From contig NZ_SODV01000001.1 in assembly GCF_004366355.1 (NCBI RefSeq), positions 310,001-374,000 of the forward strand: a stretch of DNA of 64,000 nt, given 5' to 3'. The notes beneath the pieces are model-generated. The model was not told the origin of the DNA, did not search any database, and saw nothing but the letters and a program-made list of their open reading frames with translations. Origin of the DNA: Dinghuibacter silviterrae. GTDB taxonomy: Bacteria; Bacteroidota; Bacteroidia; Chitinophagales; Chitinophagaceae. Both the position numbers and the translations under genes were made by a program. Shown one piece after another: positions 1 to 23,756 of the stretch (positions are counted from its first letter, which is position 1; every line of letters begins with the position of its first letter).

Positions 1-3000
1 GGTTTCCCCAACGGATCGGTCCCCACTTCCAGTTCGATGGGGTAATACTTGTCCTTCCCGGTTTGGGTCAGCAGCCCCCGCAGGGCATCCTTGACGGCGA
101 TACGGCCGATGGCCCACTCCTTTTGCCGGGGAAGCGACAGGGTTTCCCGGTAACTGCGTTCTTTACCCGACAGGTAGCGTTTCAGGATAAAGTTCCAGGT
201 GGCGATGCGTTGATAGGTGTGGTGAAACCACCAAACCCCCGGGGCCACTTCCACAGACAGGGCATGATGTAGAGGGTCCATACACACCCGCCACAACCGT
301 TCGTCCACGTCCAACCGCCGGTTTTGCCAACCCCTCAGGACGCACCAGGTCTTCCCGTTTCTTTTCAGCAGGATATCCCCGGTGGCAAATTCGTCCTGCA
401 ACTGGATCAACCGGCACGTGCATTCAAAAAGCCCGTCCTGGTCGCCCGGGTCGCCAAAAAATTCCACCTCGTTTATTTTGACGGGGAACGCAACGTTGTC
501 TTTTGGCAGGGTGAGCTGCAACCAAAGCCCGAACAATTGCCCGGCGTTATCGAGCAGCGATCCCTTTCCCGCGCCCCCTTGTATCCAGCCCCGGATGCCG
601 TCCTTCCCTACGGACACGACCTCCCGGATCCCCTGGTAGGCCGGCCCGTGAAACATCATACGGCTATAGATCTCCGCGGGCGTGATCCGGATGTCCAGTA
701 CCTCGCCAATATCGAAGTGTACATCCGGCGTCTGTGGATAGGTTGCCGCCAGCACCACTTCCGCACGCGCGTAATTTTCCAGTGTCATCTCCAACACGTC
801 CCGCCCCTTCCAGGAACCCGTCACCCTTTCCCGGAATGGCGCCGCCACATTCATCCACTGAAAAACGGCAACCTGTTGCAGACGGCGCACCTTCCCCGGC
901 GCCCCCTTTTCCGCCGCGATGTCCCAAAACAACTCCAGGGCCATGGTCATCGGTATCACCGGCTCCCTGTCATCGGGATGGGGCCAGCCCGGTCTTTGCC
1001 GGATCAGCGAATGATCGATCAGGTAGGGTGTATTCTCCAGGGATATATCGAGCGCGTGGGTGAAATTCGGGCGCCGCGGCGCCAGCAAATCAAGAATGTG
1101 CGTCTGTGCCTCTGTCAACTCCTGGCAATTTTCGAGGAAAGACTGCATCAGCGGCGACGACGACGCGTAGCCTGTCGGCCCGGCGGCCGCTCCGGCAGTC
1201 GCCATCGCAGCAGGCCCCGAGGGCCCCACGGGCCCCGATGCCACGGAAGCTGCCCCCGCGGCGCGCCTCCACTTTTCCAACCCCGCGATCTCCTTCACGG
1301 CGGGCGACCCCAACTGCAAAGACACGCCCGCCGGGCGGACAGGCACCCCCATAAAGGCATAGTCCACCGCACGGCCTTCCACGAATAAAGCCGCCAACAC
1401 CCTTTGCAACTGGCAAAGCCCCGAACGGTGCGGAACATTGGCCGCTACGGCGCTGTAAGAACGCTGTTTGAGTGTATCGTCGACAAATCCCGTGAGCCCT
1501 CCCGAACCCACCTGTATAAAAACCCGCGTTCCTTCCTCGTAAAGACGATCGATCAATTCCCGGAAACGCACGGGTTGAAGAAGGTGTGCAACGGTCAGTT
1601 GCCGCACGCCCTCGGCATCGTCCGGGTAAGGGGCGACTGTCGTGGCGGACCACAGGGGGATGGCCGCCTTTTGAAAGGGAACCTGGCTCAGAACCTGCAT
1701 CAACCCCTCCAGCCGGTCTTCGATAAACGGCGAGTGAAACCCCGATTGAAAAGGCAGCCGCTGGACAAAAACCTGTTGTGCTTTTAACTGGTCTTCCACT
1801 CTTTCCAAAGCGGCTTTCCTACCACAAAGGATCACCTGTTGCGGACAATTGTCTATGGACAGGTACACCTCCTCCACCGCCAAAAGCAGCGGTGCCACTA
1901 CAGGATACCCGCAACCCGCCACCAGAAAACCTGCGTCTTCAATATCGAAAAGGGCAGGGTTCAATCCCCCCAGCATACGCGCGACGGCCTCCGGTGATGC
2001 GAGCGATGAAGAACGGGCCGCCAGGAATTCACCAAGGCTGTGGCCTGCGTTCAGGTCTGGCGATATACCCAGTCTTTTCAACGCCGTATCCAGGGTCTCG
2101 CTTCTCTCGATGGCCTGAAAGGCCACCTGGAACAATTCCGTTTCCGAGGATACCCCGTACCGTGCGGGCTCGATACCGAAATACGAAGCCACGCTCTCCG
2201 TCTCCCCCGCACCGAGCCCGTCAAGACCAGGGAAAAGAAAAGCGACTTTGCCCCCGGAGGAGACTAGTGGCGTCGTCGTAAACCATATATCCTGCTTGTT
2301 CCGCCAGGGTGTCCCCCGGCGTATGATGTTGATCGCTTTGCGGATTCTTTCTTCCGTGGGGTCAAACAGGGCAAGCCGGCAGGGCCCTTCTCCCGGATCG
2401 GTCTCCCCATTTTCGAGGGCCTCGATCAGGGCATCCCCGGTCGCGCGGGCCAGTAGCCGTACGGAATCCATACCTGAATTGGTGACGCGCGGACGTCGAC
2501 GACCGGTCGACGCCCCCGGCGCCCCCTGCAACACCACGTGCGCATTAATCCCCCCAAACCCAAACGCATTCACCCCCGCCACCAGGGGCAGGTCCGTCTG
2601 GCGCCAGTCAAGGGTTTCCCGGACGGGTTCGAAACGCGTCTGCCGCAACTGTTCCAAGGGTTCCTCACAATGCAGCGTGGGCGGTATCTTCTCATGATAA
2701 AGGGCAAGCGCTGTCTTGATCAGGCCCGCGATACCGGCGGCCGGCATGGCGTGTCCGATCATCGACTTCACGCTCCCGATCCCGGCCCGGGGCAACGCAT
2801 TGTCGTTACCAAACACCCGGGCAAGGGTTTCCAGTTCCGTTTTATCGCCTAAAGGCGTACCGGTACCATGGGCTTCGATATAGCCGATGTCCCGCACCGC
2901 CATCTGCGCCTGCTGCCAGGCCTGTTCCATCGCCTTCGACTGGCCCTTGACCGAGGGACTCATGACGCTCGTGCCGGCGCCGTCGCTGGAAACACCGACC

Positions 3001-3899
3001 CCGCGGATCACGGCGTAGATCCTGTGTCCTCCCGCCAGGGCGTCCTCCAGACGCTTCAACACCACAAACCCACACCCCTCCCCAATCAGCAAGCCGTCGG
3101 CCCGCTGATCGAAGGGCCGGATCTGCTGCCGCCTGGACAACGCGCCCAGTTGGGTAAATATGCTCCAGAAGGGTGCGTTCTGCCCGGCATGGATCCCACC
3201 GGCAATCACCATGTCGGACCGGCCGGCGCTCAATTCCCGGACGGCATGGTCAACCGCCACCAGCGAGCTGGCGCAGGCGGCGTCCACGGTATAGGCCGAC
3301 CCGCCCAGGTCCAGCCGGTTGGCCACCAGCGAGGCCGCCAGGTTGGGCACAAGCCCCATCGCCACGTCGGGTCCGAAACGTCCCTTCTTCGACTGAAAGT
3401 CTCTTTTGATCTCCTGGATCTCTTGTTCCCTGGCTTCCGGTAACAATTGCCGGAGCAGGTGAACGATTTGTTCGCCCGTGCGCACGATATCGGCGACGCG
3501 GGTGGCGCCGGGGCTCATATAATTGCCCTTGCCCAAAATGACGGCCGTCTTGTCCAACGGGAGCCGCTTATCGAAAACAGACGCGTCTGCCAGCGCCTGT
3601 TGCGCCAGGCGGAGCGCCAGCAATTGCTCCGGCTCGGTGCCCTCGACCGCCAGCGGCAAAAGCCCAAACGCCAAAGGATCGAAGGTGGCAAAGGAGTCGA
3701 TAAAGCCACCCTTCCGGCAATAAAAGCGGTCCGCCGCCGGCCCTGCGTCGTCAAAAAAACTATGGTCCAGCCGGTGTTCGGGCGCCGTTTGAATGGCGTC
3801 CCTTTTGTCCAGGATATTTCTCCAGAAGGTATGGACGTCACCTGCCCCCGGGAAAATCCCCGACATACCGACGATCGCAATTTCCAAGGGTTTCTGCAT
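1..3899 (-). CDS. Type I polyketide / lipid synthase, KS-AT-DH-PPTase (3' end outside window)
   Basis: This reading frame is open from the ATG at 3899 to the window edge: 1299 codons are visible and the stop lies outside. The protein starts MQKPLEIAIVGMSGIFPGAG, a typical ketosynthase start. The KS has its active Cys in DAACASS near residue 206 and His residues in EAHGTGT (about 344) and GHAMPAAG (about 382). An acyltransferase follows, with FLFPG near 553, GHSLGE near 622 and a later GFHSPF. After an Ala/Gly/Pro-rich linker, a double-hotdog dehydratase-like region begins near 955, with a likely catalytic His in LIDHSL (about 963). The last visible part (after about 1215) has KEWAIGRIAVKDALR and then GTDPLGKP, which resembles a 4'-phosphopantetheinyl transferase. 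It starts 16 bp after the upstream synthase stop, so the two are probably co-transcribed and act as partners in an iterative synthase in the cytosol. No ACP is seen in the visible part. Confidence 0.9.
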   Translation of the reverse strand, partial: MQKPLEIAIVGMSGIFPGAGDVHTFWRNILDKRDAIQTAPEHRLDHSFFDDAGPAADRFYCRKGGFIDSFATFDPLAFGLLPLAVEGTEPEQLLALRLAQQALADASVFDKRLPLDKTAVILGKGNYMSPGATRVADIVRTGEQIVHLLRQLLPEAREQEIQEIKRDFQSKKGRFGPDVAMGLVPNLAASLVANRLDLGGSAYTVDAACASSLVAVDHAVRELSAGRSDMVIAGGIHAGQNAPFWSIFTQLGALSRRQQIRPFDQRADGLLIGEGCGFVVLKRLEDALAGGHRIYAVIRGVGVSSDGAGTSVMSPSVKGQSKAMEQAWQQAQMAVRDIGYIEAHGTGTPLGDKTELETLARVFGNDNALPRAGIGSVKSMIGHAMPAAGIAGLIKTALALYHEKIPPTLHCEEPLEQLRQTRFEPVRETLDWRQTDLPLVAGVNAFGFGGINAHVVLQGAPGASTGRRRPRVTNSGMDSVRLLARATGDALIEALENGETDPGEGPCRLALFDPTEERIRKAINIIRRGTPWRNKQDIWFTTTPLVSSGGKVAFLFPGLDGLGAGETESVASYFGIEPARYGVSSETELFQVAFQAIERSETLDTALKRLGISPDLNAGHSLGEFLAARSSSLASPEAVARMLGGLNPALFDIEDAGFLVAGCGYPVVAPLLLAVEEVYLSIDNCPQQVILCGRKAALERVEDQLKAQQVFVQRLPFQSGFHSPFIEDRLEGLMQVLSQVPFQKAAIPLWSATTVAPYPDDAEGVRQLTVAHLLQPVRFRELIDRLYEEGTRVFIQVGSGGLTGFVDDTLKQRSYSAVAANVPHRSGLCQLQRVLAALFVEGRAVDYAFMGVPVRPAGVSLQLGSPAVKEIAGLEKWRRAAGAASVASGPVGPSGPAAMATAGAAAGPTGYASSSPLMQSFLENCQELTEAQTHILDLLAPRRPNFTHALDISLENTPYLIDHSLIRQRPGWPHPDDREPVIPMTMALELFWDIAAEKGAPGKVRRLQQVAVFQWMNVAAPFRERVTGSWKGRDVLEMTLENYARAEVVLAATYPQTPDVHFDIGEVLDIRITPAEIYSRMMFHGPAYQGIREVVSVGKDGIRGWIQGGAGKGSLLDNAGQLFGLWLQLTLPKDNVAFPVKINEVEFFGDPGDQDGLFECTCRLIQLQDEFATGDILLKRNGKTWCVLRGWQNRRLDVDERLWRVCMDPLHHALSVEVAPGVWWFHHTYQRIATWNFILKRYLSGKERSYRETLSLPRQKEWAIGRIAVKDALRGLLTQTGKDKYYPIELEVGTDPLGK

Positions 3900-3915
3900 A
3901 AGTTAGGGGTTGAAC

Positions 3916-6900
3916 TTATTCCGCCATGATCAATACCTGGCTTTCGCGTCCGTATTTCAATTCATTCAGGAACGACTCCTTCCCCGTTTCCAGCGGGATC
4001 AGGCCGATACCTTTACGCTCATATTCTCTTTCAAGACCCGGGGTGACCATACCCGCGCCCTTCCAGGGTCCCCAGTTGATCGCCAGCACTTTCCCCTGGA
4101 TCAACTTTTTCAATTCCCGCGCATACCGGTCGATCACGCTGTTTGCTGCCGCATAGTCCGTCTGTCCACGATTGCCATACACCGACGCAACGCTGGAAAA
4201 GAGGATGACAAACTGCACGTCGCTCCTCAGCTCTTCCGCCAGCACCCGCAGCGGGGTGACCTTAGTGGAAAAAACCCTTTCGAAGGATTCCAGGGTCTTC
4301 TGGTGAAACAGTTTGTCTTCCAGCAACCCGGCGCCATGCACGACTCCGTCCACGCGGCCGTGGGTGGCATATACCCCCGCCATAAATTGACGCAAACCCT
4401 CCTCATCCCTCAGGTCCAGGGAATGATAGATCACCGTCGCCCCATTGGCCTCCATGGCCGAAAGGGTATTCAGGATCTGGTTCCACTTGAAGATCTCCTC
4501 TGTTCTTTTCTCAATTTCCGCGGGCGTTCCCCCCGTTCCCCGGGCCAGCAGGTACTGCCGGATCTCTTCCCGTGTTTTCAGGAAGCGGTATTGGTCCCGC
4601 CCTTCCAGGCGGGGATCCAAAGAGCGGCCCACCAGCACGTAACGGCATGGGTAGTCCTTGGAAAACCGCGTCATCAACTCCGCCGTGATCCCCTGCGCGC
4701 CACCCAACACCAGCACCACGGCCTCTTTATCGAGGTTGATATCGGATACGTTCCCTTCGGCCAGCCGGCTGGGGACCAGCTCATGCGTATGCCGGACGGT
4801 ATGGTCATAAAATACTTCCGACGGATGGTCGGGGTTTAGGATCTCGTCAAGGGCAATCCCGGCGATGGCATCGGGTGACAATTTGTTCTGGAGGTTGATC
4901 ATCCGGCACTTTGTTTTTTCCCATTCCTTATCCAGGCTTTTCAGAAAACCCGGGAATCCTTGAAAATGCCGGAGGAACCTGGCCTCCCCGGGGAGCGTCA
5001 TATACCCACCCAAGTCCGAGATCGCGTAGATCCATTTCACCCGGTTCAAATCCAGCTTCTTCACCATTCCGAAGGATTCGTCTATGGTCAGCTTTTTTAC
5101 CGCGGCAAAAACATCCAATAAGATCAACCCGTCATACGTCTCCAGCGCATCCCCGGAGGATACCACCGTCGCTGTCGCGCCGTATTTTTCCAACCGCTCC
5201 TTGATCGCCGGGGCAATCGCGCCCCCGTCGTCGGTGATCGCAAACCGTTGTCCCTTCAGGTCCTGGCGGCTTGTCGCGCTAAACAGCGTGGGCGTCAATT
5301 CAAAGCGAAGCCTGGACAATTTCGGTGCCGGTGGCACTGCCTCTCCCGTATGTTGCACAATCCATTGCAAAAGACCGTTGAGTGTTTTGAGCGCCGCCAG
5401 CTGTTCCACGACGGCGTCCTCGCTTTTACCCGGTGCGGTCAGCCCCCCGAGCTGTATCCGAAGCGCCCCGGTGATCTCCATCCGTTTGATGGAGTCTATG
5501 CTAAGGTCGCCCTCCAGGTCCATGTCCATCCCCAGCATGTCCGAGGGGTAACCCGTCTTTTCACTGACAACCTGCAGCAGCAGTTTACGGAGCTCCGGTT
5601 CGGTGCGCGCAGCGGGCGCCGCGGCTGCGGTAGCGGGTACCGGCGCGGCGGCGGGCCTCAATGCCGCGGCCGGCGCCTCCAAGCCCGGCCCGGCCACGCC
5701 CGGGCCGGTCACAGCGGCCGGCCGCACCAGCACCGCGTCCCCCAGGGACGCCCCCGGCACGGCCTGCCCCAAATACCCCAGCATCACATCCCTTTGTGCC
5801 TGTATCAACTGCCGGACGCTAAGCAGGTATTCCTGAACAATGTGTTCCGCTCCTCCGTTTGACATATAAGAAGATGTTTTGTTTCCCATGATTTCCAGGG
5901 GCGTAACCACCGGTGCACGGACCGGCAGGTCCCCGGACAACGGTCTCGCCCACTGTCCGTTGACGACCCAGGTGGACGCGCTCCGGCGAAAAGCGGAAGG
6001 ATCGAGGTCCACCTGTCGCGCCCCCCGCCCTTCGAACAACTTTTCCCACCGGATCTCCCGCCCGCTGGCGACAACACCCGCCAGCGCCGACAAAAACCGC
6101 GAAAGACCCGACTGCCCTTTCTCTTCGGTATGCAACAGCAACACTTCTTTGCCAAGGATCGTCCGGGTCAGCCCCGTCAATACTTTCCCGGGTCCGACTT
6201 CCAGGAATATCCGCGCGCCGTCTTCGTACATCTTTTGTACTTCCTCGCAAAACCGGACCGGTTGCACCAGGTGGTCCGCCAGCCTGTTCTTGATCGCCTC
6301 CGGCGATACGGGATACACACCGGCCGTGGTATTGGACCACACCGGGAGCGTTGGCCTCCGGAAAGGCACACCCTTCAGGGCCGACCGGTACAATTCCCGG
6401 GATCCCGCCAGCAAGGGACTATGAAAAGCACACGCCACCTCCAGCGGCCTGTAGTCTATTTTCAGGTCCGATAATTTTTGTTTCAGCCGCTCCATGGAGG
6501 GCGTATCCCCCGCCAGCACCCATTGCTGGGGAGCGTTGTGGTTCACCGCGTACACACCTTCACCAACAATATCCCCAAGCGATCCCTGCGGGCAACTGAC
6601 CGCAACCATCACCCCCTTGTCGTCGCCCACGGCTTCCAAAACCGCTGCCGCCCTTTTTTCGCTCAGGGATACCAGTTGGTCTTCTTCAAAAACCCCGGCA
6701 AAACAAAGCGCGGGCAGTTCGCCGTAGCTGTGCCCCGCGAGCATATCCGGTTCGATCCCCAGGTCCCGCAACAAGGAAGCAATGGCCATGTCCACCATAC
6801 CCAGCAGCGGTTGTGCCAGCCGGGTATCCTTGACCCGTTCATTTTGCCGGCGCCGGGCGTCCTCGTCAAAAACGGCCGGGGGGAAAAGTACCTGTTCGTA

Positions 6901-9900
6901 CTCCGGCCGCCCCTTGACCCACCGGCGCAGCGAAGGGATATGCACCATCAACTCCCTCGCCATGTTCACCCGCTGGCTTCCCTGACCGGGGAAAAGAAAC
7001 GCGATCTTGCCCTCTACTTTTTTTGTGTACAAAACATCTTTATTCAATAAATCCTCCCGCCCTTCCGCCACCATACACAGTTGTACCGGTTTTTCGGAAG
7101 ACAGCGCCAGGCTATATGCCAGGTCTTTCAGGGATATTTCGTCCGTGTCCCGTACCATAGCGCGGACCGTGTCCAACAGCGCAAGGGCTTCCTCCGGGTT
7201 GTCGCCCCTGAACACCAACAATTCCGCCGGCCACGCCGCTGTGGGCGGTGTATTTTCCAGGTGATTTTCGATCACCGCATGGAAATTGGTTCCTCCGAAT
7301 CCAAAAGCGCTGACACCGGCCAGGCGCCTGTCTTCCGTCCAGATACCCGCCTGCAGGGAAAACTGAAACGGGCTAAAGGCCGGTGTATAGTAAGCATTGG
7401 GCGTCGACAGGTGAAGCGTGGGTGGTTTTACACCGTGATACACCGACAGGGCGGCCTTGATCAGCCCCGCCAGACCCGCGGCACACTTGGTGTGCCCGAT
7501 CTGGGTCTTGACGGACCCAAGGTTCGCCTGCCCGGGCAGCGCCCCTTCACGGCTAAAAAGATCGGACAGGGCACTCAGCTCCGTTTTGTCTCCCACCACG
7601 GTCCCCGTCCCGTGCGCTTCTACCATACCCACCAGGGAAGGCGATACCCCCGCCTGTTCGTACGCCCTTTCCAGGGCCTTTACCTGGCCGGACCTGCGGG
7701 GGGCGGTCAGTCCAAGGCTTTTACCGTCGCTGGACCCGCCGACCCCTTTTATCACCGCGTAAATCCGGTCTCCATCATGAACGGCATCCGTATAACGCTT
7801 AAGCACCAGCATCGCCACCCCTTCACCCAAAGCGATCCCATCCGCGCCTGCGTCAAATGTGCTGCACCGCCCTTTCCTGGACAGCGCATGCGTGCTGGAA
7901 AACAACAAGTAATCGGTAATCCCGTTGTGCAGGTCGGCCGCACCGGCCAGCACCATATCCGACCGGCCCGTTGCCAGCTCCTGGCAAGCCAGGTCCACCG
8001 CGGCCAGCGAAGACGCGCAAGCCGCGTCCACCGTATAGTTCCGTCCCCCCAGGTTCAGCCGGTTCGTAATCCTACCGGATATCACATTCGCCAGTATCCC
8101 CGGGAAAGAATCTTCCGTCAGTGTCGGCAGGGCGGCGTCCAGCTCGGGCGGCAGTTCCCCCAACAACTGGCGGTACATCGCCCGGAAGGAATACAGGTTG
8201 GCCAGGTCATGCCCCCCTTCCGCCCCGATGATGACCGATACGTTCCCTCCGTCCACATCCTTCCCTCCATAACCGGCATCGTCCAGGGCGCGTTTGGCCA
8301 CCAGCAGGCTCAACAACTGCGTTGGGTCGATGGCCGCCAGGGCCTGGGGCGGTATGCCAAATACCACCGGATCGAAGTCCGTGTCGGGGATAAAGCCGCC
8401 CCATTTGGAATGCGACCGGTCCCCGCTTGTCGAAGCCGGGTCATAATACAACGATTTATTCCAACGGTCCTCCGGCACTTCGGTGATGCAATCCCTGCCA
8501 CCGAGGATGTTGCTCCAGTATGCATCGAGGTTTCCAGCCCCCGGGAAAATACACGCCATGCCGACGATGGCCACGTCCCGCCCTTCCAAACGGCGCGCGG
8601 CCATGGCCGGTACGGCGTCCAGCAAGGTCACGCTTCCTTCGGATACGTCTTTGTGCAACGCCTCCACCGTAACCACCTTATCCCTCAGTGCCACCACCTG
8701 GCCGATCATATACATACCCTTCTCCGCCTGTTCTTCCGCGGATACCGGCAGCACCTTTTCGCCTTTTCTTTCCATGCCCTTGGTGGCGATCCTCAGACGG
8801 CCCACGTTCAATTGCTCAAGGTGGTCCCACATCGCCTTCCGGTCCATCCCGATCTCCCGCAACCGTTCCTTTTCCTCCCGGAAAAACACCGCAAAAGGCG
8901 AGTCCAGACAACGTGTTTCATGCCCCGGTGCCGTCTCCAGCAATATCGTATCCGTTTGCCGGATCGCTTCTTCCTGGAACTGCGGGAGGACCGCCCCTGT
9001 ATCAACCGCTTCTTTTGTATAGAGGTACGCCGTACCCATCAACACGCCCACCCCGGCGCCCCGCATCGCCAATGGCGCCGCCATCACCGCGACAAAGGCC
9101 GCCGAAAAGGCGTCATGGATACCACCGGCAAAAAACACCTGTAGCGCATCCGCATGATCTTCCTGCAGCAGGCGTTCGATTTGTTTTTCCCAAAGAACCA
9201 GGCTCGACAGCGGCCCAACGTGTCCTCCGCATTCCCGTCCTTCGAAAACAAACTTTCGCGCGCCTTCCTTCAGGAAAAGGTCCAGCAAGATGGGAGAAGG
9301 TGTATGCAAAAAAGTGTTGATCCCGATGTCCTCCAGCGATTTCGCCTGGGATGGACGTCCGCCCGCGATCAACACAAACGGCGGTTTTTCCTCCCGGATG
9401 TACTCCAGTTGCTCATCCCGCAATGTCTGTGGCGCAAAACCCAGAATGCCCACGCCCCAGGCATTTTCCCCTGCCGTTTGCCGCGTTTGCCGGATCAGTT
9501 GTTTTGCCTGATCTCCTTTCAACAGGGATAAAGCCACAAACGGAAGACCGCCGGCTTCCGCAACCGCACCCGCAAATGCAGGCACATCGCTCACTCTCGT
9601 CATCGGTCCCTGGGCTATAGGATAAGTTGTACCCAAAGCTGTGCTCAACGTATTCCCGGGTCCCAACACCTTCCCCGCCTTCGCCTGGCGCAGGTGCCCG
9701 CGCATCGCCTCATGAAGCCCGGTTACCATCCGGTCCAGCTTCCCATACCGTGCAACCAGGCTGCCCGCGATCGCTATATCCTGCCCTATGGGAACCTCTT
9801 CCAGGTTCGGACGGTCCAACACCCTGACCCCATCGATCACCCTTGTCTCACTCCCCGTCAGTTTTGAGCACACGTCCTTGAATTCTTTTGACGCGCCGCA

Positions 9901-10419
9901 CTCCGGGAACAACACTAGTTGGCTGTCCAGCACGACACCGCTCGCACCCATGGCGACCAACGCCGCCGACGTATGGATCCCCGCGCCTCCCTGTACCCAA
10001 ATATCTATACCACGAACCTCGCGAATGATCCGCTGAAACAATATAAAGGTCGACTCCTCTCCCACCCGTCCTGCACCTTCATTCCCTTTGACAATGATCG
10101 CCGAAGCCCCTTCCGCCTTTGCCTTTTGTGCCTCCGCAACGGTATGTACCTGGCAAAACCACATGGCCTTCACGCGAAAGGGCGCAATGACCAATTCAAC
10201 CTGAGAAGGTAAAGAGATGCCGGAAAGCGTATCGGAAACCATGCAGACCCCAAAGGGCTCGCGCGTACCCCCGACCATCGCGTCCAGCGCTTCCACCGCT
10301 TTGTCGCGGTTACGGCCGAGGTGCAGTACCGGGAAGGCCCCGGTCTTCGACAGGGCGATTGCAAGCCCCACATCAGGCTTTTCAAAAGGTGTTATTCCAA
10401 TTAGGTTTGTCTTTCTCAT
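3916..10419 (-). CDS. Type I polyketide / lipid synthase, (ER-like)2-KS-AT-ACP-KR
   Basis: This 2167-residue multidomain synthase is cytosolic. Residues about 1-560 form two nitronate-monooxygenase-like TIM barrels in tandem (GGAGIHTSAALVAMGASGVV in the first, FAGGIHDAFSAAF in the second). They are the likely enoyl reductase, as PfaD is in polyunsaturated fatty acid synthases. KS begins near 613 (GRDVAIVGMACIFPG), with its Cys in DAACASS (about 799) and His in EAHGTGT and GHTKCAAG. AT runs about 1140-1415 with GHSYGE near 1228. An Ala/Pro-rich linker leads to one ACP with the phosphopantetheine Ser in LSIDSIKRMEI (about 1641). KR occupies about 1690-2167, with its nucleotide loop GGAQGITAEL near 1903 and Tyr in GQTDYAAANS near 2088. 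The DSIKR-type ACP and the domain set recall PfaA-like secondary lipid synthases rather than modular PKS. DH activity is supplied by the downstream gene. The product cannot be read from sequence. Confidence 0.93.
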   Translation of the reverse strand: MRKTNLIGITPFEKPDVGLAIALSKTGAFPVLHLGRNRDKAVEALDAMVGGTREPFGVCMVSDTLSGISLPSQVELVIAPFRVKAMWFCQVHTVAEAQKAKAEGASAIIVKGNEGAGRVGEESTFILFQRIIREVRGIDIWVQGGAGIHTSAALVAMGASGVVLDSQLVLFPECGASKEFKDVCSKLTGSETRVIDGVRVLDRPNLEEVPIGQDIAIAGSLVARYGKLDRMVTGLHEAMRGHLRQAKAGKVLGPGNTLSTALGTTYPIAQGPMTRVSDVPAFAGAVAEAGGLPFVALSLLKGDQAKQLIRQTRQTAGENAWGVGILGFAPQTLRDEQLEYIREEKPPFVLIAGGRPSQAKSLEDIGINTFLHTPSPILLDLFLKEGARKFVFEGRECGGHVGPLSSLVLWEKQIERLLQEDHADALQVFFAGGIHDAFSAAFVAVMAAPLAMRGAGVGVLMGTAYLYTKEAVDTGAVLPQFQEEAIRQTDTILLETAPGHETRCLDSPFAVFFREEKERLREIGMDRKAMWDHLEQLNVGRLRIATKGMERKGEKVLPVSAEEQAEKGMYMIGQVVALRDKVVTVEALHKDVSEGSVTLLDAVPAMAARRLEGRDVAIVGMACIFPGAGNLDAYWSNILGGRDCITEVPEDRWNKSLYYDPASTSGDRSHSKWGGFIPDTDFDPVVFGIPPQALAAIDPTQLLSLLVAKRALDDAGYGGKDVDGGNVSVIIGAEGGHDLANLYSFRAMYRQLLGELPPELDAALPTLTEDSFPGILANVISGRITNRLNLGGRNYTVDAACASSLAAVDLACQELATGRSDMVLAGAADLHNGITDYLLFSSTHALSRKGRCSTFDAGADGIALGEGVAMLVLKRYTDAVHDGDRIYAVIKGVGGSSDGKSLGLTAPRRSGQVKALERAYEQAGVSPSLVGMVEAHGTGTVVGDKTELSALSDLFSREGALPGQANLGSVKTQIGHTKCAAGLAGLIKAALSVYHGVKPPTLHLSTPNAYYTPAFSPFQFSLQAGIWTEDRRLAGVSAFGFGGTNFHAVIENHLENTPPTAAWPAELLVFRGDNPEEALALLDTVRAMVRDTDEISLKDLAYSLALSSEKPVQLCMVAEGREDLLNKDVLYTKKVEGKIAFLFPGQGSQRVNMARELMVHIPSLRRWVKGRPEYEQVLFPPAVFDEDARRRQNERVKDTRLAQPLLGMVDMAIASLLRDLGIEPDMLAGHSYGELPALCFAGVFEEDQLVSLSEKRAAAVLEAVGDDKGVMVAVSCPQGSLGDIVGEGVYAVNHNAPQQWVLAGDTPSMERLKQKLSDLKIDYRPLEVACAFHSPLLAGSRELYRSALKGVPFRRPTLPVWSNTTAGVYPVSPEAIKNRLADHLVQPVRFCEEVQKMYEDGARIFLEVGPGKVLTGLTRTILGKEVLLLHTEEKGQSGLSRFLSALAGVVASGREIRWEKLFEGRGARQVDLDPSAFRRSASTWVVNGQWARPLSGDLPVRAPVVTPLEIMGNKTSSYMSNGGAEHIVQEYLLSVRQLIQAQRDVMLGYLGQAVPGASLGDAVLVRPAAVTGPGVAGPGLEAPAAALRPAAAPVPATAAAAPAARTEPELRKLLLQVVSEKTGYPSDMLGMDMDLEGDLSIDSIKRMEITGALRIQLGGLTAPGKSEDAVVEQLAALKTLNGLLQWIVQHTGEAVPPAPKLSRLRFELTPTLFSATSRQDLKGQRFAITDDGGAIAPAIKERLEKYGATATVVSSGDALETYDGLILLDVFAAVKKLTIDESFGMVKKLDLNRVKWIYAISDLGGYMTLPGEARFLRHFQGFPGFLKSLDKEWEKTKCRMINLQNKLSPDAIAGIALDEILNPDHPSEVFYDHTVRHTHELVPSRLAEGNVSDINLDKEAVVLVLGGAQGITAELMTRFSKDYPCRYVLVGRSLDPRLEGRDQYRFLKTREEIRQYLLARGTGGTPAEIEKRTEEIFKWNQILNTLSAMEANGATVIYHSLDLRDEEGLRQFMAGVYATHGRVDGVVHGAGLLEDKLFHQKTLESFERVFSTKVTPLRVLAEELRSDVQFVILFSSVASVYGNRGQTDYAAANSVIDRYARELKKLIQGKVLAINWGPWKGAGMVTPGLEREYERKGIGLIPLETGKESFLNELKYGRESQVLIMAE

Positions 10420-13352: not shown

Positions 13353-14348
13353 TCAATACCCGTAATTCAAGTCAGGAACGTGATTTGTCGCCACAAACAA
13401 CGCCCCCGCATCCCTATTATACACCTTCCCCTCAAGGATACTTTGCCCCGCAAACCCCGGGTTATTCCCCGCCCCCAGCGGCCAATAACCCCGCGTATTC
13501 AGGATGTCGATTCCCCCGATCCGCGCAATCGACAACCCGAAATCGGTGCAATTGTCCCGGTTTAAATTATACAAATGACAGCCATAGCGCTGCAAGGCAT
13601 CGATGACCTTTTTGAATTGCCGGGAGGAGATGAATTTACCGGCGGTCTCGTCCCAATCGTGCCGGGAATCATCCTTGACCACCGACGGAGCGGTGGGACG
13701 CACCGGCGTCGCCGACAAAAAACCCATTTTATGCGGGTAAAAACCGAACGTCCGGCAGACGATGCTGTTGTCTTTATTATACTTGATCAGCGTGATAAAG
13801 GTATGTCCCACACGGCCCATGTGTACGAATATTTTTCGTTTCCCGGGCGAAGGCTGTTGGACATGCACCAGCAAGGCATAGGCGCCGGCTTCCTTTCCAT
13901 CCTCAAATGCGGCCCGCAGCGAATCGATAGGGACCGGTACGGATTCCCTTACCGGCAGTTCCCGGTAAAAGGCACTGTCACTGGGAAGGTCCTCCTCCTG
14001 GCCCGTATTGTAGTAACACTTCATGGCCACGGGATAAAGCCGCATCCTCGCCGAAACCCTGGCCAGGTCGCTAAACAAACGGAAGCGCACCCTCCCCGTC
14101 CACCCGAGGGAACCCGAACCGAGCATGGACAGCAACCGGGCAAAGGCCTGCCGGTGGTTACCGGTGAGCCGGTACCCGGATTCTATTTCCGAAAGTTCCG
14201 AGGTAGCCGTCCCCTCCCAGCGCAATATCGGCGGAAGAGGCAGCAATGAGTCTCCCGGGGCTCCCGCCCATGCACGTCCGGCGGCAACCGAGAGGGTTAT
14301 CAGAAGGATCAAGGTCTTTGTCAAAGAAGCGACGCGCATGGTGATCAA
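13353..14348 (-). CDS. Secreted protein with GHTF and NCTDF motifs, possible papain-like fold
   Basis: This is a 331-aa exported protein. The start MITMRVASL could also be the second Met (14339); either gives a signal peptide ending near AGRAWA. The N-terminal third is helical. The C-terminal half has the pair RVGHTFITLIKY (about residue 180) and NRDNCTDFGLSIA (about 270), i.e. a His and a Cys each in a conserved-looking setting. That pairing recalls NlpC/P60 or DUF4105-type papain-like proteins, but the usual Cys-then-His order is inverted here, so the assignment is only a suggestion. No enzyme activity is claimed. It is followed by the 137-aa gene on the same strand. Confidence 0.65.
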   Translation of the reverse strand: MITMRVASLTKTLILLITLSVAAGRAWAGAPGDSLLPLPPILRWEGTATSELSEIESGYRLTGNHRQAFARLLSMLGSGSLGWTGRVRFRLFSDLARVSARMRLYPVAMKCYYNTGQEEDLPSDSAFYRELPVRESVPVPIDSLRAAFEDGKEAGAYALLVHVQQPSPGKRKIFVHMGRVGHTFITLIKYNKDNSIVCRTFGFYPHKMGFLSATPVRPTAPSVVKDDSRHDWDETAGKFISSRQFKKVIDALQRYGCHLYNLNRDNCTDFGLSIARIGGIDILNTRGYWPLGAGNNPGFAGQSILEGKVYNRDAGALFVATNHVPDLNYGY

Positions 14349-14415: not shown

Positions 14416-15486
14416 CTACCATCCAAACGTTCCGTGAATAAACCCAATCAACCGCTCCGCCATATCCTGCTGCTCCCGCACATTCGGGTGACCCGGTGTA
14501 TTTTTATAGGGGAAAAAGCACGTATATATATTCTTATCCTGTAAAGAAGCCACTGCTTTTGTGATGTATCCCGGCCAGGGCGCCCCTTCCCGGGTGGCAT
14601 CCATACTACCGAGGGCACAAATGATATGCGCATCGGGGTATTTACTCCTGACCTGCCTGATAAAACGGGCATAGGCCAAAATAATCTGATCACCGGTGGG
14701 CGGCGTTGTATCAAATTTCGCTTTAAACTGATCGTTTGCGGGCATTTTTGTCAACCAGGAATCATTTTGAAACAAGTTGACCACGACGATATCCGGGGTA
14801 TACCTGCTAAAATCCCATTTGCTGTCCGGGTTGGTGGCATCCAGCCTGTCGTACATTTCCGGCATCACCAGCGGGAACCAGCTGACCAATATGCCGATAC
14901 CGCTTTTTGACGTACAATGGTATTCGGCGCCAAAATGCCGGGCCGTTATGGCCGCATAGCTCACGTAGTTGTCTTTATAGGGACTGCTTCCCCGGTCCTG
15001 GCCCGTCGAGTCTTCCACCGCGTAGCCGCTGGTGATGGAATCGCCAAAGAACTCCAGTTTGTGTTTGCCTGTTGGCGGCGCCGCCAACACCTTGGCGCCT
15101 TTATCAAAGGTAAAATGGTAAAACCACGTCTTCCCGTTTTCCCACTCGGTTCGTTTAAACAAAGTAAGGGTGTGTATACCCCTTCCCAAACCGGATACCA
15201 GTACATACTCATTTTTCCCTGCATCCGGATGCAGCTTCCCGATAACTTTACCGTCTACGACAATATTGAAAAAGTTATCCCCACGCTCATCGTCCAGCAA
15301 GGCCTTCACCTCACTACCCGTAAACCGTATACTTAACGAAGTACCCGGCCATGCGATCACCGAAGCCGAATCCTTTATATCCACGCGCCCCATATAGTGG
15401 ATATGTGTGTCCTTGTTATTGATAATTATCTGGGCGGTACATTGTCCCAGCAATAAGTTAAACAGGAATAAAAAAGCAATACGCAT
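14416..15486 (-). CDS. CE2-like carbohydrate acetylesterase (SGNH fold)
   Basis: The 356-aa product begins MRIAFLFLFNLLLGQCTAQ, a signal peptide. Residues about 30-135 form a beta-rich jelly-roll-like domain (GTSLSIRFTGSEVKALLDDE), typical of the N-terminal part of carbohydrate esterase family 2. An SGNH catalytic domain follows: FFGDSITSGYAVED carries the Ser near residue 150, VVVNLFQNDSW the Asn, and GHPNVREQQDMAERL the His. CE2 enzymes remove acetyl groups from hemicellulose-type glycans. The protein is probably periplasmic or secreted. It belongs with the two other esterases and the GH9 enzyme nearby as a loose glycan-degradation set, although they are not in one operon. Confidence 0.88.
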   Translation of the reverse strand: MRIAFLFLFNLLLGQCTAQIIINNKDTHIHYMGRVDIKDSASVIAWPGTSLSIRFTGSEVKALLDDERGDNFFNIVVDGKVIGKLHPDAGKNEYVLVSGLGRGIHTLTLFKRTEWENGKTWFYHFTFDKGAKVLAAPPTGKHKLEFFGDSITSGYAVEDSTGQDRGSSPYKDNYVSYAAITARHFGAEYHCTSKSGIGILVSWFPLVMPEMYDRLDATNPDSKWDFSRYTPDIVVVNLFQNDSWLTKMPANDQFKAKFDTTPPTGDQIILAYARFIRQVRSKYPDAHIICALGSMDATREGAPWPGYITKAVASLQDKNIYTCFFPYKNTPGHPNVREQQDMAERLIGFIHGTFGW

Positions 15487-19760: not shown

Positions 19761-20768
19761 TCAATTTGCTGCTACATAAATGCCATTGGCCACCCCTTTG
19801 GCAGAAAGCATCGTCTCTATCCCGTCCTCCCAAAGGGCAGCCCCGTTCCCGTCATCACCGGCGACGAACAAATGCGTGCCGCCGTTCCCACTGTAATAGA
19901 CAATCGCGTTGGCACTCCCCCCATACATCGTGCCCTGAAAAGGTAAGACCGTTTCGACCCCGTTTTTCCAGTAGACAGGGAGGTTCCAGCCCTTGCTCCC
20001 CAAAACGCTCCCCGCCACATAGACATCTGAGCCCGACACAAAAATCGAGTTCAATTGGGTAATATACTCCTCAGCCGTCTTCAAGGTATCGGGGATGCCA
20101 TTTTTCCAATACACCGGGACACGGTTCATATCAAAGCCGGTCATGTAGACGTCGCTCCCGGACACATAAAAAGCACCCACCTCCGGGTCCCCCCCGGACG
20201 AAAAACGCGGATAGTACCCCTGGGATACGACGTGCAGCACCCCGTCCAACCAATAAACGGCGTCCCCCACGCTATCCGATCCGGCCACATAGAGGTCTCC
20301 CCCCACCGCCTGCATCGCCCGGATGCGGGAGGCGGTCCCCCAGCCCGGCAAAGACAGCACATTGCCGTTTTCCCAAAGGGCATGGCTTGCAAAATAAACC
20401 CCGTTTCCGTTGACGGCGATGGAACTGGCGTACAGGAGCTCCATCGACCCATCGAAATTGTGCGGTGTGCCGTTCTTCCAATAGAGGTATTGTCCGAAGG
20501 GGCCTGCGGGCGTACTCTCGCTGCTTACGTTGCAAACACCGGCAACATACACATCGGTGCCGGCCACAAGGACCTGCTCTCCGTAACCCGCGGATGTGGA
20601 GAGGACTTCGGCGGAATCATCTTTCCAAAGTACGGGGTTGGTGCCGTTGCTGCCCGTGACGTAAATGACCGGGAGATTTCCCGGGTTAATGGTGTTTGTC
20701 GGGGTATGCGAATGTTTGCGGCAGGATGCCAACAGGAGGAGGAGACAGGCGTAGTGGAGGGGTTTCAT
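19761..20768 (-). CDS. Lipoprotein with YWKNG repeats, beta-propeller-like
   Basis: The ATG at 20768 gives 335 aa with a lipobox (LLLLLASC, Cys16), so the mature protein is probably a lipoprotein. The rest is built from about six repeats of 40-50 residues, each with a pattern like DVYVAG followed by PVYWKNG or an equivalent (GDAVYWLDG, RVPVYWKNG, NLPVYWKNG, AALWEDG). The repeats suggest a beta-propeller. No catalytic motif is seen; binding of a partner or a glycan is possible. It starts 52 bp after the GH9 gene stop on the same strand and may be read from the same transcript. An upstream in-frame ATG at 20861 would overlap the GH9 gene and lacks the signal. Confidence 0.78.
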   Translation of the reverse strand: MKPLHYACLLLLLASCRKHSHTPTNTINPGNLPVIYVTGSNGTNPVLWKDDSAEVLSTSAGYGEQVLVAGTDVYVAGVCNVSSESTPAGPFGQYLYWKNGTPHNFDGSMELLYASSIAVNGNGVYFASHALWENGNVLSLPGWGTASRIRAMQAVGGDLYVAGSDSVGDAVYWLDGVLHVVSQGYYPRFSSGGDPEVGAFYVSGSDVYMTGFDMNRVPVYWKNGIPDTLKTAEEYITQLNSIFVSGSDVYVAGSVLGSKGWNLPVYWKNGVETVLPFQGTMYGGSANAIVYYSGNGGTHLFVAGDDGNGAALWEDGIETMLSAKGVANGIYVAAN

Positions 20769-20820
20769 ACCCGAATGATGGCAAAAACGTGCGGAGCGTT
20801 GCATCGGGCCTGGATTTTTG

Positions 20821-23727
20821 TTACTCCCCACGAACCTCCTTGCCCGCCTCCCAATGCCCATCCGGCACCACCAGGACGACCCAAGGCTCTTTAGCTGAAA
20901 CAGGCTTACCCCGGAATTCTACCGTTGTTTCCACGCCGTCTTTCAAGTATACTTCTCTTGTGACATTAGGAAAGATGATCCCATCCGCACGGACCGTCAC
21001 CCGGTGCGTCCCTTTGCCCCGCACCGCAACCCGGATGGTCACGGCCCCTCCCGATGCCGCACTTGAAACCACCTTCATGTCAAGGAGGCTGTCCACCCGC
21101 ATATCAAGCGCATACGCCCCACCAGGCAAAAACACCCGCTCCTCTTCCAACCCGGCGCTCCGCACACGATACCTCCCCTCCGGCAGTTTTATCGCAAAAT
21201 GTTTTTGTCGCTGTACAACGACCGTATCCGACGACGAGATAAAATATACCACCGAATCGGCCTGGCCTTCGACAAAGGCCGGCCCCCCGACGGCCGACAA
21301 CAGCCATAGCCAATTCGTCGCCGGATGTCCCCAAATCTCCTTATAGGTCCACATGCTTTGCACCGGCCAATACGGTACGTCTTCTTCCCCCTTAGTCTCT
21401 ATCCCTACCGGCAGCCCCCCCGCCATCTGGCCCGAAGACGGCGAATAAAGAGGAACGAAGTCGTGTCCCTCCCCATACATGGTACTCTCCGCAAAAGGGT
21501 TCTTCCCAAGGATCCACTCCAATTGGTGTACAGCGAGGTCCACCGACGCCTGGTCGTTGCGTAGAAAACCGGCGGCCGCCAGGGCCTGGGCCTGGGGCAA
21601 AATGGTACCGAAATGCCCTCTGTAGTCCATCCACACGGGGAACAGCCTGAGATAGTGTCCCTGGCCGAGCGGGATGCCGTTCAATACCTGTTTGCGGTAA
21701 GATTCCATTCTGCTCTCAGGCACATGAAGGTATTCGGTATCCGCATAAATAGTAGCCGGCAAAAGGCCATAGGGACCTGTATAGGCAGCAGTCGTCTTCA
21801 GGTATTCACTATAAAGGGCCGCCGCACTATACCACGTCATCCAGTCTGCGTGCCCGGGAAAAGCCCGGCACAGCGCTGTCAGCGCCAGCATAGGTGCCTG
21901 GTCGCGCCCCCGATGGCAATAATGAAGCAACCGGTCTTTAGCCGTGCTGGTATAAAAGAAGCCCGTCAGCGGGACATCCCAATCGGGCCGCACGCGTTGC
22001 TGGGCGCCGGTGATGTACTTCGCCATTGCCACCGCCTTGCCCTCAAATTGCCGGTCGCCCGTAGCCCTCCAAAGATCTATAGCAGCCTGAATGACCACCG
22101 ACGGCAGTTCATCCTCCACATTGTCCGAGTCGAAATTCCCACGGAAAAGATTGGACGTCTTAACGATGCCGGGCAGGCCCTCTATAGCAAACCGCCAGTC
22201 CATCCTTGCCATCTGCAGGGCATATGCAGCCAACCTGGCATCAACGTCCTTTAAAACCCGGTAAGCAATCGCCTCCACCGCCGCCGCTTCGAAGTTGGTC
22301 ATGGGGTTATTCCGCGCGGTGACCGTTATATCATCATCGTTACCCATGACACCATCCGTCCGACGGCTGTTAATCGATCCCACATCCCGGTATCCGTCCC
22401 CAAAACTCGTTTTCAACACCCAGTCCAGCCCCCACCTGGCCTCTGCGAGCACCCGGTCATATAGCTCCTGATTGCCCGCCCGCGCATGCAGATTTTCCGC
22501 CAAAGTAAAAAGCGCATAAGTGATCTCATCCGTAGCCTCCGCTTGTTGAGACAGGTCCCCGGCATCATGCCAGCCCCCGTTGATGACGATCCTTTTTTCT
22601 CCATGCACGCAAGTCCAGTCCCCATGACAGACCCCATGCACCCCCGGCACCTCCATACCGCACCGTTCCATATAAAAAAAGTTCAGCACCTTACGGATGC
22701 TCTCCTCCCAAACGTTGGCGTCCACCGAAAAGGGTTGCGTCTTCACGTCTCCCGCTGACAATACATAACGTCCCGGTGTCCGCAACTCGGAAAAATCCAT
22801 AACATTAAAGTCCCCAATAGCGCTTGTGGCCTTGCTAAGGGCTTTGGTCAACACCACACGTCCATCCTGCGCGTCGATCACCTGAAAGGTCTTCGCAGCA
22901 AGTCCATTCGCAATGGCGCTTTTCGGCGCGCCTGTCTGGTAGCCATCCTGGCTGTAAGCGATCCGGTTGCTCCAAACATCCCAACCCTCTATCTTGTCCG
23001 GCACCACCCGTTGCAAGGTGAGGTCGTCAAAAAAGAACCGTATGCTGTCCGCCTCCCCTGGTGCGCTCCCCGAAAGCCCATAGGAAGCCTCAAAACCCGT
23101 AATCTTATCCCGCGCGACATTGCCAATCTCCCACACCACATGGTTCCACTCATGATTCCGCAAGATCAACGAGGTCTCCCCTTCCTGGCCAAAGAGTGCC
23201 GGCAGCTTTTCCTGCCCTTCATTGTAGAGCTGCAGGTCAAGGGCCGTGGTGAAAAACCCCGGCAAATCGGGATATATCCAAAACGAAATACGGTTGTACC
23301 CCGTCCAATCCTCTCCATCAAAATGTCGCCGGATGCCCGAGCGCCCCCATCCCCGGCCGGTCGCCGGACCAGGTCCCGGCAGACGCGTAGGAGTAGACAT
23401 CAGCAACGACCAGTCACCCTGGTGAACCTGTTCCTTGCTGAGCCCAATCGTGGCCACACTGACGTTGGAATCTACGATCTTCATCACCTTACGCGCGTCG
23501 ACAATGGCGCCTCCGCTGGTCGTAAAAGAGCTCCAGTTTTTGAGGTCTTCCATCTGATCCAGGGAGCGGCTTTCCAGGACGGGTTTATTCAGCCAGCGGT
23601 GCTCGGCGGAGGCTTGGATATCGATGGCAATGGGGTCCCCGCCGGTGCGCTGGCAGAGGGCCTTCACGTTCAAAAGGGGAAGGAGAAATACTAGAAGGAA
23701 AAGTCTCAACGCAGTCCGTTTTTGCAT
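20821..23727 (-). CDS. Glycoside hydrolase family 9 enzyme (endoglucanase-like)
   Basis: The ATG at 23727 gives 968 aa beginning MQKRTALRLFLLVFLLPLLN, a signal peptide, so the enzyme is exported. Residues about 40-230 form a carbohydrate-binding-like beta domain with paired Trp residues. Residues about 235-330 match the Ig-like domain that precedes GH9 catalytic domains (IAYSQDGYQTGAPKSA). The catalytic (alpha/alpha)6 region has GGWHDAGDLSQQ near residue 387 with the two Asp residues, GKNPFAESTMYGEG near 746 and TYKEIWGHPATNW near 796 supplying the likely acid Glu. A beta-rich tail of about 150 residues completes it. GH9 enzymes cleave beta-1,4-glucans. It lies among esterase genes and 29 bp after a toxin gene. 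Confidence 0.9.
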   Translation of the reverse strand: MQKRTALRLFLLVFLLPLLNVKALCQRTGGDPIAIDIQASAEHRWLNKPVLESRSLDQMEDLKNWSSFTTSGGAIVDARKVMKIVDSNVSVATIGLSKEQVHQGDWSLLMSTPTRLPGPGPATGRGWGRSGIRRHFDGEDWTGYNRISFWIYPDLPGFFTTALDLQLYNEGQEKLPALFGQEGETSLILRNHEWNHVVWEIGNVARDKITGFEASYGLSGSAPGEADSIRFFFDDLTLQRVVPDKIEGWDVWSNRIAYSQDGYQTGAPKSAIANGLAAKTFQVIDAQDGRVVLTKALSKATSAIGDFNVMDFSELRTPGRYVLSAGDVKTQPFSVDANVWEESIRKVLNFFYMERCGMEVPGVHGVCHGDWTCVHGEKRIVINGGWHDAGDLSQQAEATDEITYALFTLAENLHARAGNQELYDRVLAEARWGLDWVLKTSFGDGYRDVGSINSRRTDGVMGNDDDITVTARNNPMTNFEAAAVEAIAYRVLKDVDARLAAYALQMARMDWRFAIEGLPGIVKTSNLFRGNFDSDNVEDELPSVVIQAAIDLWRATGDRQFEGKAVAMAKYITGAQQRVRPDWDVPLTGFFYTSTAKDRLLHYCHRGRDQAPMLALTALCRAFPGHADWMTWYSAAALYSEYLKTTAAYTGPYGLLPATIYADTEYLHVPESRMESYRKQVLNGIPLGQGHYLRLFPVWMDYRGHFGTILPQAQALAAAGFLRNDQASVDLAVHQLEWILGKNPFAESTMYGEGHDFVPLYSPSSGQMAGGLPVGIETKGEEDVPYWPVQSMWTYKEIWGHPATNWLWLLSAVGGPAFVEGQADSVVYFISSSDTVVVQRQKHFAIKLPEGRYRVRSAGLEEERVFLPGGAYALDMRVDSLLDMKVVSSAASGGAVTIRVAVRGKGTHRVTVRADGIIFPNVTREVYLKDGVETTVEFRGKPVSAKEPWVVLVVPDGHWEAGKEVRGE

Positions 23728-23756
23728 CGCCAAAGGTTTTGACGCAGGCTCAAAAA

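Follow-up and report, generated by a model that had tools for sequence, protein, structure and literature searches.

An Ars/PfaA-lineage iterative synthase with a fused FabK-like enoyl reductase heads a candidate acylated-glycolipid operon in Dinghuibacter silviterrae

Secondary-lipid synthases are sorted into Types A-T, the Ars cluster included (Shulse and Allen 2011, PMC3098273), and just a handful of them have known products (PMC13291983). In this classification Beijerinckia indica is placed in Type P, the type of the ArsA/ArsD synthase of Azotobacter vinelandii; the Ars product was shown for Azotobacter, phenolic lipids not being found in Beijerinckia (PMC3098273). Fused pfaDA and pfaBC-phosphopantetheinyl transferase (PPTase) genes are described in Aquimarina and Flavobacterium and resemble those of Renibacterium (JACS Au 2026, PMC13291983). 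The present analysis concerns an operon of Dinghuibacter silviterrae (G000), whose first two genes, encoding the giant proteins A and B, lie at one edge of the window, that is, the whole stretch of 64,000 nucleotides analysed (G000:C1:310001-374000, within a 6.5 Mb genome). Both minus-strand frames were confirmed by an open reading frame check, and every domain listed in the original prediction was found, namely two ketosynthases (KS), two acyltransferases (AT), an acyl carrier protein (ACP), a ketoreductase (KR), a dehydratase (DH), an enoyl reductase (ER)-like part and a PPTase, most of them by Pfam and the DH via a predicted structure. The two adjacent genes are as first described, but they are not a two-gene unit: they are the first of eight co-directional genes, and genes 3-8 lie outside the window (Table 1). 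The reading favoured here, which is judged likely on balance, is that an iterative type I synthase of the Ars/PfaA lineage works together with its own decoration enzymes to give a glycosylated, O-acylated long-chain lipid.

The lineage of the synthase was assessed with a KS tree, the check suggested together with the original prediction. The careful tree comprised 50 rows after removal of nine from a 59-row quick tree (the Persicobacter chain length factor (CLF)-like domain, the G309 KS, the Gloeothece KS (long-branched) and six near-duplicate or redundant rows), and the first tree excluded matches below about 360 residues or 100 bits, such as KS-A of G534, which is cut by the locus boundary. 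The label PfaA rests on TIGR02813 scores above cut-off for G195, G256 and G335 and, in the case of the plasmid rows, on where they fall in the tree; the label PfaC-type was assigned from position, some of these KSs being followed by a CLF-like second domain, and the modular references are one Nostoc plasmid cluster and one Methylosinus polyketide synthase (PKS); PfaB KSs, enediyne PKSE and Type M and Type N members are outside the sampled rows. In this tree KS-A of the Bacteroidota copies and of Streptomyces formed one group (100/99), with one row from a Propionibacteriaceae metagenome-assembled genome (MAG) inside the Bacteroidota copies. The group was joined by Rhodobacteraceae SC52 at 95/88, then by the Ars-type KSs (Beijerinckia, Methylosinus) at 97/94; the support for the further union of all these with the PfaA clade was 97/95. 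KS-B formed a clade of its own (100/100), Streptomyces included, which joined the KS-A/Ars/PfaA group at 90/81, and the PfaC-type and the modular KSs made up separate clades apart from both. The proposed class of secondary-lipid synthase is therefore upheld by KS-A, which sits close to Ars and PfaA and apart from the included modular KSs, and a modular PKS was rejected because both KS-A and KS-B fall outside the modular clade. Since KS-B lies outside the PfaC-type clade, protein B is not a PfaBC fusion by descent; no PfaC-type KS-CLF was found in it by Pfam or in the KS tree, and it seems closer to a PfaB-style KS-AT fused with a DH-PPTase.

The ER-like part of protein A was correctly recognised at first but is not a single unit, since it consists of two fused barrel-like units, ER1 and ER2, and matches to both are also present in Ars-type proteins. 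In the predicted structure ER1 (residues 1-245) forms an additional barrel-like unit, for which eight or nine strands are modelled with low to middling confidence, and it is related to FabK by sequence. At the position of the catalytic FabK-type His, this residue was present in 1 of 14 scorable ER1 sequences against 14 of 14 for ER2, and because this residue is missing in nearly all ER1 sequences the unit is probably a pseudo-reductase. ER2 (residues 254-604) scored 130.6 bits with the NCBIfam FabK model, far from the cut-off of 453, and is thus not a FabK equivalog. In structure comparison it matched FabK of S. pneumoniae with Z 27.5 and 24% identity, the trans-AT PKS reductase of MlnA, which ties with FabK by fold, with Z 27.4 and 16% identity, and PfaD with Z 25.6 and 13% identity; the aligner covered mainly residues 197-604, and the models of the ER (mean pLDDT 68.5, from 6 sequences) and of the DH (69.4, from 5 sequences) are both middling.

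The original prediction set the fused ER against the separate ER gene of classical pfaABCD clusters, and the idea of a fused PfaD fails in its particulars. The ER of protein A gave no PfaD-family match at E <= 0.01 and is nearer FabK by sequence; it shares with PfaD the barrel of the NMO/FabK superfamily and differs from it by this closeness and by the extra N-terminal barrel. The PfaD-family model TIGR02814 had no match at E <= 1e-5 in G000, G061, G534, G569, G588 and Fulvivirga, and in G007 there was a single weak match of 26.7 bits, below cut-off; as a control, the same model scored 648-666 bits in five genomes picked for having PfaA-like genes. Aquimarina sp. RZ0 (G714) has five PfaD-family matches, two of which sit on contig C101 (94,624 bases), which is distinct from the operon contig (116,671 bases) and carries a 3925-aa frame with a PfaD-family match of 449.6 bits, just above cut-off (C101:72977-74284). 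Thus Aquimarina RZ0 appears to hold both PfaD-fused and FabK-type-fused synthase kinds.

For protein A the Pfam matches above cut-off were NMO (three stretches), the N- and C-terminal ketoacyl-synt domains, Acyl_transf_1 and KR, and PP-binding was just below (20.4 bits, cut-off 20.8). AT-A retains the Gln, Gln, Ser, Arg and His residues in 12 of 12 A-type rows (eight from the family of this operon, two Ars-type and two PfaA), a FabD-like protein of the same genome being the reference of the AT alignment. The best NCBIfam match of the whole protein is PfaA (TIGR02813), and this match, together with the place of KS-A inside the wider PfaA group, speaks for a polyunsaturated (PUFA) or plain very-long-chain fatty acid destined for membrane phospholipids, the sugar- and acyl-transfer genes then serving some other purpose; these genes are indeed partly or wholly missing at the A+B loci of Aquimarina and Azobacteroides. 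This explanation is nevertheless considered improbable, as the match of 933.6 bits is below the PfaA cut-off of 1010.1, PfaD-family ER is missing from G000 at the threshold and against the control values given above, protein B has neither PfaC-type KS nor CLF, and a glycosyltransferase (GT) follows A, B, ACP and hydrolase in 10 of 11 A+B loci. A canonical PUFA synthase was rejected on the missed PfaA cut-off, the lack of the PfaD family and the position of KS-B outside the PfaC-type KSs.

The ACP content of protein A was another point of the original prediction, in which a single ACP was contrasted with the tandem ACPs of pfa clusters. One DSIKR motif was found in this protein A, with no tandem ACPs, and one also in both Streptomyces copies. 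The contrast is weak, however, because two motifs are present in protein A of G007, G061, Azobacteroides, G588 and G569 and three in those of Fulvivirga and Aquimarina, so that seven other complete Bacteroidota proteins have 2-3, and the operon adds a separate ACP gene. Among the Ars-type proteins Beijerinckia has two DSIKR motifs and Methylosinus one; the Propionibacteriaceae MAG protein (L013) ends at the contig end and its one DSIKR was excluded as a full ACP count.

In protein B the Pfam matches are one KS and one AT, without a second KS domain, and the tail of the full-length protein matches ACPS/PPTase with 48.3 bits and PS-DH weakly, with 17.1 bits, below cut-off. A PPTase-like end was therefore rightly proposed, although the window ends inside protein B and leaves most of this domain outside. 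Its LGKP and VSLAH sequences, matched by eye, correspond to the P1a x(G/D)xP and P1b' hShxH motifs as defined by Shulse and Allen, in whose scheme the hShxH form of P1b' marks Types M-T (PMC3098273). The double-hotdog reading of the DH region holds since PKS dehydratases were the top Foldseek matches of its predicted model (mean pLDDT 69.4), with 5hst at E 4.3e-12 and a TM score of 0.71 by target; the DH, FHGPxYQ and DNxGQ motifs recur in the relatives, and H84, D238 and Q242 of the aligned piece are invariant in 5 of 5.

Two ATs were claimed and two are present, but they are not equivalent. In all ten aligned B proteins AT-B retains the catalytic Ser and His and has lost both Gln positions (mostly to Leu), the malonyl-binding Arg being replaced by Leu, Phe or Tyr, whereas AT-A keeps these residues. 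Bacterial PfaB likewise lacks the Gln-Arg pair and is a terminal acyltransferase with the motif GYSxG (PMC12895367). Since the pair is absent in both, AT-B may transfer the finished chain. AT-B resembles PfaB also in following a KS domain (PMC12895367) and differs in its motif, GHSxG, where His stands before Ser in 10 of 10 and GYSxG was not found, in the Cys kept by KS-B and in its fusion to DH-PPTase.

Enediyne PKSE is a single KS-AT-ACP-KR-DH-PPTase polypeptide, and A and B jointly hold this domain order with the PPTase fused. An enediyne-like or other bioactive polyene is nonetheless a far-fetched product for this machine, given the active-looking ER2, the splitting of the domains over two polypeptides with an ER added in place of the single-polypeptide layout, and the absence of any enediyne accessory family among the eight genes.

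The positions of all these domains and of the eight genes are collected in Table 1. Neighbouring operon genes overlap by at most 13 bp or are separated by at most 27 bp, and this tight spacing makes the set look like one transcription unit; the starts of the ACP and AT2 genes were chosen inside longer reading frames. The GC content is 59.0% for A and 60.7% for B, compared with 54.5% in the remainder of the window, and 45.9% for the short ACP gene. Shulse and Allen report that pfaA homologues consistently exceed the mean GC of their genomes (PMC3098273), so the raised values of A and B are no proof of recent transfer.

Table 1. Features of the operon on contig C1 of Dinghuibacter silviterrae and in the window; genes follow in operon order, each with its domains
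Feature	C1 position	Window position	Strand	Length and features
Protein A	313916-320419	3916-10419	minus	2167 aa; probable pseudo-ER, ER, KS, AT, ACP, KR
ER1 (N-terminal TIM-barrel-like unit)		9685..10419	minus	GGxG-H motif kept; Arg at FabK-type His position
ER2 (FabK-like enoyl reductase)		8620..9660	minus	ECGGHVGP motif intact
KS-A		7264..8580	minus	Cys-His-His motifs intact
AT-A		6148..7005	minus	canonical malonyl-type: GQGSQ, GHSYG, Arg, FHSP
ACP of protein A		5380..5592	minus	LSIDSIKR
KR of protein A		4060..4722	minus	FSS and YAAAN motifs intact
Protein B	309640-313899	3899 down to 3	minus	1419 aa full, 1299 aa in window; KS-AT-DH-PPTase
KS-B		2520..3890	minus	catalytic Cys present; own clade
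AT-B		1425..2267	minus	malonyl-binding Gln/Arg pair lost; Ser and His kept
Double-hotdog DH		150..1067	minus	DHxxx, FHGPxYQ, DNxGQ motifs
PPTase, N-terminal piece		3..149	minus	remainder (most) outside window
Separate ACP gene	309350-309652		same as A/B	about 100 aa; DSIE
Alpha/beta-hydrolase gene	308574-309362		same as A/B	262 aa
GT1	307383-308546		same as A/B	387 aa; UDPGT/EryCIII-like (GT1-type) glycosyltransferase
GT2	306180-307373		same as A/B	397 aa; UDPGT/EryCIII-like (GT1-type) glycosyltransferase
AT1	304930-306183		same as A/B	417 aa; condensation/PapA superfamily acyltransferase
AT2	303650-304933		same as A/B	about 427 aa; condensation/PapA superfamily acyltransferase

A close counterpart among the typed systems is Ars. 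The likeness is drawn from the sequences of Beijerinckia and Methylosinus, and the Beijerinckia plasmid locus used here is taken, from strain and gene order, to be the Type P cluster of Beijerinckia indica. Its ArsA-type protein has the same order of two fused NMO-type units, KS, AT, ACP and KR, its partner protein also ends in DH-PPTase, and the ER-KS-AT-ACP-KR protein A of the operon has a KS grouping beside the Ars-type KSs at 97/94, with SC52 in between. Differences are the chalcone-synthase-type genes that stand between the two big genes of Beijerinckia and the DH-PPTase partners of Beijerinckia and Methylosinus, which are without KS-AT; within 35 kb around these partners no homologues of ACP, hydrolase, GT1, GT2, AT1 or AT2 were found at E <= 1e-6.

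The colinearity of protein A with the Beijerinckia protein over ER, KS, AT, ACP and KR would fit an Ars-like role, in which the acyl chain is passed to a type III PKS to give alkylresorcinols or alkylpyrones. The genome has one PF00195 match of 88.5 bits, and the Beijerinckia locus also contains a GT4-type glycosyltransferase gene, so that sugar transfer is no mark of the present operon alone. This role is regarded as quite improbable: the sole PF00195 match (C1:1378851) lies some 1 Mb away from the operon, the eight genes include no type III PKS, and the Beijerinckia and Methylosinus partners differ in lacking KS-AT and nearby homologues of the other six genes. PF00195 is a poor screen for Ars-type enzymes, with nothing found in the Beijerinckia plasmid either, so that other type III PKSs may be missed; of the Beijerinckia chalcone-synthase-type genes, the single one tested was recognised solely by the C-terminal chalcone-synthase family. 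The alkylresorcinol pathway was set aside, there being no type III PKS within the operon.

Some neighbours of the Ars-type loci were recorded in passing. After the DH-PPTase gene of Beijerinckia the GT4-type glycosyltransferase gene (L056:27130-28506) is followed by ABC/RND-type transporter genes, and the capacity for sugar transfer may go further back in this synthase lineage. A plasmid of Rhodobacteraceae SC52 (L059:13620-28239) has an Ars-like synthase with a TauD-type dioxygenase and a S-adenosylmethionine (SAM) methyltransferase among its neighbours and no type III PKS annotated between its two big genes. Near the Ars-like genes of the Methylosinus plasmid there is a second type I PKS (L057:28855-35071), whose KS falls in the modular clade.

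The conservation of the operon was followed by tblastn of its eight proteins against the loci of relatives. The identical co-directional order A, B, ACP, hydrolase, GT1, GT2, AT1, AT2 was found in G000, G007, G061, G534 and G569, both acyltransferases of G061 matching AT2 best, and in G588 the same order is kept up to the contig end within the last gene. In Fulvivirga sediminis the set comprises A, B, ACP, hydrolase, two GTs with swapped best matches and one acyltransferase; on two Streptomyces plasmids the genes for A, B, ACP, hydrolase and GT stand in order, and a SAM methyltransferase comes next. Of the 11 loci with both A and B, 10 have an ACP, a hydrolase and a GT after B. The Azobacteroides MAG (L017) is arranged differently, with an acyltransferase upstream, two A-like genes and B; beyond B (22545-25310) lie a thioesterase gene and transporter genes of the MacB/FtsX type, the latter being a possible export route. 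The additional A-like gene there is shortened (1266 aa, L017:7182-10979) and directly precedes the full A; most of ER2 and the C-terminal half are missing from its protein, which has no DSIKR ACP and is absent from some motif counts because it is incomplete.

In its distribution the operon is rare. Protein A was matched at E <= 1e-100 in five genomes among 119 relatives and over ER and KS together only in G000, G007 and G061 of the same set; at E <= 1e-180 it was matched in 4 of 395 genomes drawn from the phylum, the first and last counts including its own genome. The only listed genome of the same genus (G001) has no protein A match. This distribution fits patchy gain and loss, and the Streptomyces copies suggest transfer between phyla.

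The Streptomyces copies are also the ground for another explanation, a macrocyclic dilactone glycolipid like cycloviracin, fattiviracin or glucolipsin, for which glycosylated hydroxy fatty acids would be dimerised by the hydrolase or the acyltransferases. Cycloviracins, which come from an actinomycete, are dimers of glucosylated trihydroxy fatty acids that bear methylated sugars (PMC4365757), and the UDPGT-family GT and SAM methyltransferase after the Streptomyces hydrolase recall this structure. This proposal is rated as rather unlikely, since none of the eight Bacteroidota genes is a methyltransferase and no published cycloviracin-type gene cluster was found in the open-licence literature for comparison.

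The glycosyltransferases and acyltransferases are the genes that say most about the product, and for them the favoured acylated glycolipid finds both support and opposition. The HGGxNT motif is present in 8 of the 10 best GT1 matches, an xHxxxDG-type motif in 7 of 8 AT1 rows, and AT2 reached 46.5 bits with the Pfam Condensation model, whose cut-off is 30.6. Several observations weigh against this product. AT1 with 28.7 bits is below the same cut-off, the PapA5 model match (38.2 bits, cut-off 396) is far below, AT2 is without the first His of HHxxxDG, and the GxSxGG motif of the hydrolase was met in only 6 of 10 rows. Both Streptomyces rows lack the HGGxNT motif of the GT and the DS(I/V/L/M)(E/K) motif of the ACP, and the acyltransferase motif was not found in the Azobacteroides row. 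Nor are the decoration genes universal: Aquimarina sp. RZ0 has a single GT beside A, B, ACP and hydrolase, and a search of its genome for AT2 at 1e-15 found no match; tblastn found neither AT1 nor AT2 at the Streptomyces loci, and no ACP, hydrolase homologue or GT occurs in the 2.8 kb after B of the Azobacteroides MAG. Finally, there is no exporter among the eight genes, and neither PfaC-like CLF nor tandem DH was found in A or B, for which reason the chain length is not readable.

Judged by the families of the enzymes, the reactions, their order, the chain, the sugars and the acyl groups of this acylated glycolipid pathway could be as follows. The PPTase of protein B would activate the ACPs, AT-A would load malonyl units onto the ACP of protein A, KS-A would condense, KR reduce and the DH of protein B dehydrate, and ER2, a FabK-like enzyme with flavin mononucleotide (FMN), would complete the reduction, ER1 being probably a structural or dimerising pseudo-reductase. 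Omission of DH or ER in some rounds would leave hydroxyls or double bonds. KS-B and AT-B would act PfaB-like at the chain end, AT-B transferring the completed acyl chain, possibly with the separate ACP as acceptor, and the alpha/beta-hydrolase would release or transfer the chain. Two glycosyltransferases of the UDP-sugar type would then add sugars, and two condensation/PapA-like enzymes would esterify sugar or chain hydroxyls. In a more specific form the proposal is a conserved, horizontally spread eight-gene Bacteroidota pathway (with a five-gene Streptomyces core) to undescribed O-acylated diglycosides of long hydroxy-fatty chains, via an Ars-lineage synthase with a PfaB-like terminal AT inside its KS-AT-DH-PPTase partner and a pseudo-ER/ER tandem replacing PfaD; this is possible and is advanced tentatively.

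Mycobacterial phenolic glycolipid and sulfolipid pathways combine iterative PKSs, glycosyltransferases and PapA-type acyltransferases to make acylated glycolipids; their synthases are of a different lineage, and the PapA5 model is far below cut-off for the enzymes of this operon. Among the characterised secondary-lipid synthases, the heterocyst glycolipid synthase (Type F, hgl) makes a long chain that ends up in a glycolipid, and by its description it differs in having KS-CLF-AT without DH/I domains (PMC3098273). In Renibacterium (a Type M member), Aquimarina sp. TRL1 and Flavobacterium sp. N502540 the same layout is described, with the PPTase fused in the second protein (PMC13291983, PMC3098273), and the hybrid cluster of Ottowia thiooxydans is alike in combining a single fused gene, there of pfaD and pfaA, with a glycosyltransferase (PMC13291983). 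As far as descriptions allow comparison, the TRL1, N502540 and Ottowia clusters adjoin PKS-NRPS (nonribosomal peptide synthetase) genes, whereas GT and acyltransferase genes stand here. The fused ER-KS-AT-ACP-KR layout with a PPTase-ended partner, offered in the original prediction as a novelty, is thus already in print (PMC3098273, PMC13291983). The suggestion of an undescribed product fared better: in the open-licence literature no product of this operon was found described, nor, supplementary files aside, a set of these eight genes in which two GTs accompany PapA-like enzymes.

A few features elsewhere were noted on the way. Upstream of the operon the window holds a CE2-type carbohydrate esterase and a GH9 glycoside hydrolase (14416-15486 and 20821-23760), and the open reading frames near them (13353-14348 and 19761-20861) have no Pfam match. 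Several more KS-like matches lie within about 15 kb at G000:C1:3817794-3832840, one of them in a stretch with two in-frame TGA codons, and are possibly another cluster of fatty-acid or polyene type. Outside the operon of G007 a further KS-AT frame of 1505 aa (G007:C4:120751-123321) groups with Bacteroidota KSs adjoining the modular clade.

In summary, the joining of a synthase with fused ER to a sugar- and acyl-transfer set makes the product class predictable and testable. The Ars-type fused ER is set apart from PfaD, and the short PfaB-like partner would be useful for studying chain hand-off in iterative synthases.

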